Positions 22,821-25,638 of a stretch of 55,836 nucleotides of DNA are shown one piece after another. The stretch is from an uncultured bacterium (GTDB lineage: Bacteria; Desulfobacterota; BSN033; UBA1163). The position numbers and the translations under genes were made by a program. Every line of letters starts with the position of its first letter. Within the stretch, counting starts at the first letter, position 1. The stretch lies in assembly GCA_938002255.1 (NCBI GenBank), contig CALLAL010000049.1, positions 1 through 55,836 of the forward strand. Direction: 5' to 3'. The notes beneath the pieces were generated by a model that was given only the letters and a program-made list of their open reading frames with translations, made no database searches and was not told the DNA's origin.

Positions 22821-22835
22821 GCAGTGAGAGGAACG

Positions 22836-23894
22836 ATGATCGAGTCAGAACCCATCATTGAAATCGATGGCTCCTATGGAGAGGGAGGAGGACAGATTCT
22901 AAGAACGGCACTCGCCTGTTCTGCTATTTTAAAGAAACCCATCCGATTGAACCGCATCCGAGCAGGCAGAAAAAATCCAGGACTCCAACCCCAGCACTTA
23001 AAAAGCATCGAAGCCCTGATTCTCGTTTCCAAAGCACGTGCGGAAGGGATTAGGATTGGATCAGAGGGGATCACTTTTTTCCCTGGAGAGATTGTTCCAG
23101 GTGAGTATGCGTTCGACATTGGCACAGCAGGTTCAGTCACTCTCCTTCTGCAAACGCTAATTTTACCACTTGCCTGCGCTCAGAGAGAATCTCGTCTGAC
23201 TTTAGTGGGAGGGACCCATGTGGAGTGGAGCCCTCCTTATCACTATTTTGCTCACATTTTTCTTCCAGTCCTTGCTTCAATGGGGATTCGGATAGAGGCT
23301 GACATTAAGAGATGGGGGTGGTATCCCAGAGGCCGAGGTAGAATCGATCTTAACATTCACCCTGCTTCTCATTTAATGCCTCTCACGTTGAATCGACGGG
23401 GTTCTTTAAAAAAAATCTACGGAATTTCGGCCACCTCCAACCTCCCTGGTCATATAGCAGAGCGACAGAGAGCCCATGCCCTCAGAAGCATTGAACGCGA
23501 ATTGAATTTGGAGGCAGAGATCGAAATTCTTTTAAACGTTCCATCGAAGGATGAGGGATCATTCCTCTTTCTTGTGGTAGAGTCAGAGGGAGGGAAAGCG
23601 GGTTTTTCCTCACTGGGGAAGAGAGGAAAACGGGCGGAGACCGTTGCGGATGAAGTCGTCGATTCATTAAAGGACTATCTCCAATCGAACGCATGCCTGG
23701 ATTGTTACCTCCCGGATCAACTGGTTCCTTTTATGGCTTTTGCTCAAGGTCTATCCTCATTGACGACCTCACGAATCACCGAACATCTGTTGACTAATCT
23801 CTGGGTTATCCAGCACTTTTTGAAGCTTTCTGTGTCCACCGCAGGGGGAAAAGGAGAGGAGGGAAAGATTGACTTGATTGGTGGAGCGTATTAA
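22836..23894 (+). CDS. rtcA: RNA 3'-terminal phosphate cyclase
   Basis: This 352-residue enzyme converts RNA 3'-phosphate ends to 2',3'-cyclic phosphates using ATP through an adenylated histidine. Diagnostic segments are IDGSYGEGGGQILRTALA at the N-terminus, RAGRKNPGLQPQHL, GGTHVEWSPPYHYF, and the C-terminal ITEHLLTNLWV, which carries the nucleophilic histidine. Length is normal. ATG 22836 follows GAGAGGA; a GTG at 22824 is also in frame. The usual neighbours rtcB and rtcR are absent. Instead hflX follows 25 bases downstream, probably in one operon. Confidence 0.94.
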   Translation: MIESEPIIEIDGSYGEGGGQILRTALACSAILKKPIRLNRIRAGRKNPGLQPQHLKSIEALILVSKARAEGIRIGSEGITFFPGEIVPGEYAFDIGTAGSVTLLLQTLILPLACAQRESRLTLVGGTHVEWSPPYHYFAHIFLPVLASMGIRIEADIKRWGWYPRGRGRIDLNIHPASHLMPLTLNRRGSLKKIYGISATSNLPGHIAERQRAHALRSIERELNLEAEIEILLNVPSKDEGSFLFLVVESEGGKAGFSSLGKRGKRAETVADEVVDSLKDYLQSNACLDCYLPDQLVPFMAFAQGLSSLTTSRITEHLLTNLWVIQHFLKLSVSTAGGKGEEGKIDLIGGAY

Positions 23895-23919
23895 AATTGT
23901 TTTAGATAAGGAGGCATAA

Positions 23920-25638
23920 ATTAACAGAATTTTTGGTCATACGATCGGTTTAAAACCCAATCAAATTCGAAGGATCGAACTAATCTACCGCAGAAAGGTC
24001 CTTCCCCAAAAAGTTATCACTCCTGAACTTGCTAATCTCTTGATAGACCTTTCCAATGAAATCAGACGACAAATTGGTGTCTTGGTTGATCGACGTGGAG
24101 CTATAGGAATGGTCATTGTCGGAGATCAGAGAGGGATCACGATCCCTGAGCTAACCAGATATCGTATCGGTATGCCACGTTTAAGGGGACTTCGACTTAT
24201 CCACACGCATCTTAAGGGAGAACCTTTAAGTGAAGATGATTTAACCGATCTTGCCCTCTTACGATTGGATATGGTGGTGGCCCTTTCCGTGAATGGTCAG
24301 AAGAATGATGGCTTGATCTATTCTGCCTACCTTCTTCCGGAAAATCCCGAAAGGAAGATTTGGGAAATTAATCCACCTTTCCCATTAAGGCAGTTTGATA
24401 TTGATTTTTTGAAATGGATTCAATCCCTTGAAGACCAGTTCCAAAAAGGACAAAGAACTCTTACCACACGAAAGTTTCGAGAGAAAGCCATTCTCATTTC
24501 GGTGGGTAGAGAAAGCCGAGAGGCATTGGAACGTTCGATGGAAGAGTTGAAAGACCTTGCTGAGTCGAGTGGTGTGCAAGTCGTAGAAACAATGATCCAG
24601 AGGCCTCAAACAATCTCACACTCCACGCTGATTGGGACAGGGAAGATTAAAGATCTCATCATCAAATGTATGCAGTTGGGAGTGGACCTGATCATTTTTG
24701 ATCAAAACTTAACCCCAAGCCAAATGGCTTCGATTTCGGACTTGACAGAATTAAGGGTGATTGATCGTACCCAGCTCATTCTGGATATCTTTGCCCAGAG
24801 GGCTCATACCCGAGAGGGAAAGACTCAAGTGGAGCTTGCTCAATTAAAATACCTACTTCCCCGTCTATCTCGCAAGACATTAGCCCTTTCAAGACTCACC
24901 GGAGGCATAGGGGGTCGGGGACCCGGGGAAACCAAACTCGAAATCGATCGTCGCAGGGTGAGAGAAAGAATCTCTCTTCTTGAAAGAGAAATGGAGCAGT
25001 TAAGCCATAGAAGAGAGCAGAGAAGAGCACTCCGGAAAAAGGCTGGGATCCCAGTTGTGTCTGTGATCGGATACACCAATGCAGGAAAGTCAACCCTCGT
25101 GAACCTACTGACCAGAAGTGATCTGCCGGTGGAGGATAAACTCTTTGCTACTCTGGATACAGCCACACGGAGATTCAAAGGAGTGAATTTCCCGCGGGCC
25201 GAAGAAAATGGGGAAGACCCTGTCCTGACAGATACGGTCGGATTTATCAAAGATCTACCGAGAGATCTCATGGGGGCTTTCCGCCCCACCTTCGATGAGT
25301 TAAAAGAATCGGATCTGTTGATCCATCTGGTTGATATCAGCCATCCTCGACGGTTAGACCACATGCAAACGGTTGAAAAGATTTTGGTTGAATTAGGATT
25401 GGAAAGCATCCCAAGGCTTCTCGTTTTTAATAAGGAAGACAAACTTGATCGGGAGGAAGTGAGGGCTATCTGCAGAAGATACGGAGGGATATCGATCTCT
25501 GCCATTCATCCTGAGAGCTTAGGAAGTTTATTAGAGGCTATTTCGAAGAAGCTTTGGGAAATTCGTTTGATGAAAAAACGATCAGAAGAGACCCCGAACG
25601 GCTTAGAAAGAAGTGATCTGGAATCAAACGGCATCTAA
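23920..25638 (+). CDS. hflX: GTPase HflX, probably started at a rare ATT codon
   Basis: HflX is a ribosome-splitting GTPase. The G domain shows GYTNAGKSTLVNLL (about residues 383-396) and DTVGFIKDLPRDL, preceded by the GGIGGRGPGETKLEIDRR signature. The first ATG/GTG/TTG-type codon is TTG 24040, but the frame is open upstream. Its translation, HTIGLKPNQIRRIELIYRRK, then VITPELANLL, matches the conserved HflX N-terminus. The upstream stop is TAA 23917-23919. The ATT at 23920 lies 5 bases after AAGGAGG (23908-23914), so an ATT start giving 572 residues is the best reading. The alternative is a sequencing error or a truncated start at 24040. Confidence 0.88.
   Translation: MNRIFGHTIGLKPNQIRRIELIYRRKVLPQKVITPELANLLIDLSNEIRRQIGVLVDRRGAIGMVIVGDQRGITIPELTRYRIGMPRLRGLRLIHTHLKGEPLSEDDLTDLALLRLDMVVALSVNGQKNDGLIYSAYLLPENPERKIWEINPPFPLRQFDIDFLKWIQSLEDQFQKGQRTLTTRKFREKAILISVGRESREALERSMEELKDLAESSGVQVVETMIQRPQTISHSTLIGTGKIKDLIIKCMQLGVDLIIFDQNLTPSQMASISDLTELRVIDRTQLILDIFAQRAHTREGKTQVELAQLKYLLPRLSRKTLALSRLTGGIGGRGPGETKLEIDRRRVRERISLLEREMEQLSHRREQRRALRKKAGIPVVSVIGYTNAGKSTLVNLLTRSDLPVEDKLFATLDTATRRFKGVNFPRAEENGEDPVLTDTVGFIKDLPRDLMGAFRPTFDELKESDLLIHLVDISHPRRLDHMQTVEKILVELGLESIPRLLVFNKEDKLDREEVRAICRRYGGISISAIHPESLGSLLEAISKKLWEIRLMKKRSEETPNGLERSDLESNGI

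Follow-up and report, generated by a model that had tools for sequence, protein, structure and literature searches.

The window analysed here, a 55,836-nt stretch of DNA from an uncultured Desulfobacterota bacterium, raises the question of where translation of hflX begins. A gene caller limited to ATG, GTG, and TTG places the start at TTG 24040 (24040..24042, + strand), the first conventional in-frame codon, and 40 conserved HflX residues are encoded upstream of it. The original prediction was that ATT 23920, which stands behind an ideal ribosome-binding site, is the start of hflX, and that translation upstream of TTG 24040 gives the conserved HflX N-terminus. The gene (23920..25638, + strand; 572 codons plus a stop) encodes a long-form HflX GTPase. 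Its ORF matches TIGR03156 (E 2.3e-126) with a score of 421.5 bits against a curated cut-off of 216.75.

The hflX start site

The ATT codon (23920..23922, + strand) is preceded at a spacing of 5 nt by the Shine-Dalgarno sequence AAGGAGG (23908..23914, + strand), whose core is nearly invariant in 17 same-family loci. It directly follows an in-frame TAA stop (23917..23919, + strand), which rules out an upstream in-frame start. Since this TAA abuts the ATT, the window has no usable conventional start that would give the same HflX N-terminus. The site is therefore arranged as the original prediction described it. Inspection of the hflX starts in close relatives, which had been suggested as a check, gave ATT or ATC in 16 same-family relatives, and at all same-family loci the homologous codon stands behind an AAGGAGG-type site. 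Relatives align with the window HflX from residue 1, those of the same genus from residue 1 or 2, so the conserved N-terminus upstream of TTG 24040 was correctly recognized.

The assembly that contains the window is a draft of 59 contigs, and this would favor a sequencing or assembly error in which the true codon is ATG. Against this, ATT, ATC, or ATA occurs at the same hflX codon in the 16 same-family relatives and in more than 100 other loci, all from independent assemblies. An ATG at 23920, which the original prediction had named as a refuting outcome, is very unlikely because the homologous codon is ATT or ATC in independent genomes. An error was rejected as the source of the ATT for the same reason. 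As far as sequence comparison can tell, this reading is already refuted by the relatives, and its probability is vanishingly small.

A start at residue 41 was the other outcome considered. Under this reading, hflX would be translated from TTG 24040, the first conventional codon in the frame, and the 40 upstream codons would be untranslated or a relic. However, codons 2-40 vary as coding sequence does. Among the 17 same-family loci, the three codon positions differ at rates of 0.53, 0.56, and 0.56 ahead of the ATT and at 0.21, 0.14, and 0.49 over codons 2-40, while codon 1 varies at its third base only (ATT/ATC). Because the codon-position pattern changes at the ATT, the coding signature begins there. 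Moreover, G6, L11, Q15, and L41 are invariant in an alignment of 23 proteins, and residues 4-48 are modelled with high confidence as two helices and a strand. The Leu41 codon is not NTG in 112 of 146 hflX loci. TTG 24040 is thus the codon of an invariant internal leucine and was rejected as the start; we regard initiation there as extremely improbable. The codons of the relatives and the invariant Leu41 exclude in practice that the ATT is a sequencing error or that translation begins at 24040. The alignments strongly support ATT 23920 as the translation start of hflX.

Promoter, leader, and upstream gene

The gene directly upstream of hflX is rtcA (22824-23894), which encodes an RNA 3'-terminal phosphate cyclase (TIGR03399). 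Homologues of rtcA were present in three of the six same-genus contig sets compared. A sigma-70-like promoter, TTGACT-17-TAAAAT (23869..23897, + strand; 10/12 consensus matches), lies in the 3' end of rtcA. The motif TTGAC[TA]-17-TANNAT was present in 15 of the 17 same-family loci and ended 19-22 nt upstream of the hflX start codon (22 nt upstream of the ATT in the window). From these positions, the hflX leader is probably ~12-16 nt long and consists mostly of the Shine-Dalgarno site. A structured leader was considered and rejected, since no stable fold was seen around the hflX start (z about +0.5) and no Rfam family was found in 23500-24300.

In the window, rtcA ends 25 nt upstream of hflX, and in 23 of 68 loci a same-strand upstream ORF of at least 100 codons ends within 40 nt. 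Ribosomes might thus get to the ATT through translational coupling to the upstream gene or by re-initiating behind it, in which case de novo codon recognition would not be needed. However, the promoter just upstream of hflX in the same-family loci would give the gene its own short leader, and one locus has no such upstream ORF at all. Since the upstream genes vary, and 24 of the 68 loci have more than 150 nt between hflX and the end of the closest such ORF, coupling is not required for hflX. We consider it a very unlikely explanation of how the ATT is used.

Start codons of hflX across the phylum

AUU, AUC, and AUA (AUH) are codons that IF3 proofreads against, as at infC. We sampled hflX 5' ends from the GTDB phylum of the window, mostly one per family and from ~100 families. 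Starts were called mechanically except for three loci called by eye (L088, L094, and L096), and four short-form or divergent loci that were unaligned at the N-terminus (L113-L116) were left out of scoring. The start codon was AUH in 122 of the 146 loci (53 ATC, 42 ATT, and 27 ATA); the others had ATG, GTG, or TTG (22 loci), CTG (one locus), or no assignment (one locus). The unconventional start is thus wider than originally noted, and AUH is the rule across the phylum. In 101 of the 146 loci, there was no ATG, GTG, or TTG from the last in-frame stop to codon +4. The AUH start is not essential, as some lineages use ATG, GTG, or TTG.

Changes at the start codon were counted for the 146 loci on an hflX tree built without the start codon. 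There were at least 38 changes among ATT, ATC, and ATA, and at least eight switches between AUH and other starts. The tree is weak, with 76 of the 146 rows filling less than half of the columns, mostly with ~80 residues. A binomial test gave a p of 0.013, which is indicative only. Any AUH codon can become ATG, normally the stronger start, by a single change at its third base, and because of this the pattern points to selection against ATG at hflX. The comparison of these loci also points to an AUH start that has been kept by selection across most of the phylum.

The Shine-Dalgarno sites of hflX differed between the two classes of start codon. They were strong at AUH loci and mostly weak at conventional-start loci, and the longest match averaged 5.6 bases at AUH loci and 3.1 bases at NTG loci (p 5e-10 in a Mann-Whitney test that was not corrected for relatedness). 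Among independent pairs, the trend ran in the same direction in nearly every informative case. Over independent switches, the test for compensation gave a p of 0.25, with only four pairs on well-supported branches.

In public records, the kin of the window are Deltaproteobacteria MAGs. A scan of genome contigs for long-form HflX found three loci, all from Deltaproteobacteria MAGs, and scans of viral contigs for it found either nothing or matches from which residues 1-165 were all missing. The hflX starts sampled from outside the phylum are those of E. coli and Fusobacterium.

Start codons of control genes

Der starts at ATG or TTG in 30 of 30 relatives from the hflX set. For LepA and likewise for Hpf, all 30 relatives compared had a conventional codon within the start window, a mechanical test with start windows 15-19 codons wide. 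In 23 of 59 genomes, the matches listed contained no LepA at E <= 1e-60, and these genomes included all six same-class genomes outside the family of the window. The gene may be truly absent from these genomes or lost to fragmentation.

The positive control for AUH starts is infC, as known in E. coli and Streptomyces (PMC5472188). The E. coli gene reads TTGGAGGAATAAGGT-ATT. The infC gene in the genome of the window reads GAGGTGGGATTT-ATC and so starts at ATC, and ATC, ATA, or ATT was found at the infC start position in most relatives. In L129, L131, L134, L135, and L140, infC has GGAGGTGATG two codons upstream of the conserved ATC, and judging from these sequences the start may be either ATG or ATC. 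One relative has an infC with neither AUH at this position nor the earlier ATG.

Forty-four ORFs of the window, including antisense ORFs, were compared with same-genus contigs for conventional starts. In three other genes, trmJ, a nucleotide-sugar dehydrogenase gene, and rtcA, no single alignment column had a conventional codon in 80 % of the sequences. They were rejected as candidates for non-conventional starts, since each relative has conventional codons near the N-terminus. In this comparison, hflX was the sole protein gene of the window without a findable conventional start. Because Der, LepA, and Hpf have conventional codons and infC starts at ATC, hflX joins infC as a gene on an IF3-discriminated start. 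At the level of sequence, the comparisons establish where hflX starts, that this start is conserved, that Shine-Dalgarno strength compensates for the codon, and that the control genes do not share the feature.

The N-terminal extension of HflX

PF13167, PF16360, and PF01926 were all matched in HflX. Because the Pfam matches begin at residue 204, the dispute over the start bears on an N-terminal extension outside the standard models. The predicted model of residues 186-566 matches solved ribosome-bound HflX structures (Z up to 34.8). Residues 1-186 (23920..24477, + strand) form a separate domain outside these matches, with no Pfam domain and an AlphaFold pLDDT of 83.8. No solved homologue of the extension was found by sequence.

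The predicted fold of the extension is JAMM/MPN-like. When the extension was folded alone, nearly all of the structural matches listed had the JAMM/MPN fold. The best of them was Pyrococcus JAMM1 (Z 7.8, with an rmsd of 4.0 across 114 residues), and all Foldseek E-values were 0.001 or higher. We checked the extension for the JAMM motif HxH...SxxD. H95-T-H97 and D107 are invariant in the HflX alignment, and position 104 is S or T in most HflX proteins and N or D in some. There is no invariant Glu in residues 49-94 to serve as the upstream Glu of JAMM, and because of this a working metalloprotease is doubtful. Judging from the model, the ribosome-splitting GTPase may carry a degenerate JAMM domain as this extension.

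A proposed link between HflX and IF3

IF3 is an anti-association factor, and HflX is a 70S ribosome-splitting factor (PMC9067457). In the mechanism that we propose, ATT 23920 would be decoded by the initiator tRNA as fMet, and the strong Shine-Dalgarno site would compensate for the weak AUH codon. The IF3-discriminated start would hold HflX synthesis low, and HflX output would go up when IF3 discrimination weakens or when free IF3 is short relative to 30S subunits. Synthesis of the splitting factor would then be tied to the supply of the anti-association factor, and the two would meet at the free-subunit pool. Since selection appears to have kept the AUH start across most of the phylum, HflX synthesis is probably low and responsive to IF3. 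By analogy with infC, sigR, and similar genes, we infer the low expression of HflX, its repression by IF3, and the physiological logic of the arrangement. Such a link would agree with what is known of IF3 discrimination and with the infC start in the same genome. As a whole, an explanation that combines the ATT start, Shine-Dalgarno compensation, and a low, IF3-linked HflX output is likely. A broader proposal is that hflX and infC are an IF3-gated pair, with HflX made in proportion to IF3 shortage throughout the phylum, and here we find the case evenly balanced.

The main rival is a constant brake without IF3 signalling. Under this explanation, AUH is the real start of hflX but does no more than fix HflX at a constant low level, with no physiological IF3-dependent regulation. 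The AUU start of S. aureus cvfC1 behaves in this way, giving ~10 % of AUG expression in both media with no effect of the medium (PMC13009471). The weak Shine-Dalgarno sites at conventional-start hflX loci would also fit, as if total output were conserved. However, an ATG with a weak Shine-Dalgarno site could give a low level too. Moreover, a strong site with an IF3-discriminated codon that is kept phylum-wide, as at infC, suggests that the class of the codon matters. We therefore regard a constant brake as rather unlikely and favor an IF3-linked output.

If HflX output is linked to IF3, the AUH start of hflX would connect ribosome splitting to subunit availability. A second translation-factor gene with an AUH start through most of a phylum suggests that cells employ IF3 discrimination as a regulatory signal beyond the feedback on IF3 itself. 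The turnover of the start among all three AUH codons and the compensating Shine-Dalgarno sites support this suggestion. If the broader proposal is true, hflX and infC would form a homeostatic circuit that acts on free ribosomal subunits throughout the phylum, and annotation would overlook this circuit where gene callers disallow the start codon. Our results also suggest that callers limited to ATG, GTG, and TTG would misplace the hflX starts of the phylum and trim part of the N-terminal domain.

Comparison with known systems

To our knowledge, few bacterial genes have kept an AUH start, the standard example being infC. Starts of this kind are already known (infC, pcnB, sigR, cvfC1, and ccpN), and hflX is newly added to them. 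We found no HflX with an AUU/ATT start in the literature, in a search that most subscription papers lay outside. The persistence of the AUH start at hflX across a phylum is unusual.

Other HflX proteins belong to the same GTPase family and use conventional starts. Fusobacterium HflX aligns over residues 4-545 and has an ATG start behind GGAGG, while the match to E. coli HflX, which has a TTG start, covers query residues 188-545 only. Like hflX, infC has an AUH start behind a strong Shine-Dalgarno site. However, infC encodes the proofreading factor and is thus under direct feedback, whereas hflX encodes a splitting GTPase, which IF3 could control only in trans. In a further AUU-start case from a single species, the start limits a housekeeping or translation gene, and hflX shares this type of start. 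LepA of the relatives compared here differs from that case in having a conventional codon within its start window.

Published precedents are infC, with AUU/ATC starts, and Streptomyces sigR, with a GTC start; IF3 restrains both, and its repression of sigR has been shown experimentally (PMC5472188). As an IF3 target in trans with a non-canonical start and an extended, conserved Shine-Dalgarno site, sigR can be likened to hflX, but it uses GTC/GTT within one genus (PMC5472188) whereas hflX uses AUH across a phylum. The S. aureus genes cvfC1 (AUU) and ccpN (AUA) have extended Shine-Dalgarno sites and are expressed at ~10 % of the AUG level (PMC13009471). They resemble hflX in combining conserved AUH starts with such sites, but they differ from it in gene and function, and their starts were confirmed by ribosome profiling (PMC13009471). 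The AUU start of cvfC1 is conserved among staphylococci (PMC13009471), whereas the AUH start of hflX is found across a phylum.
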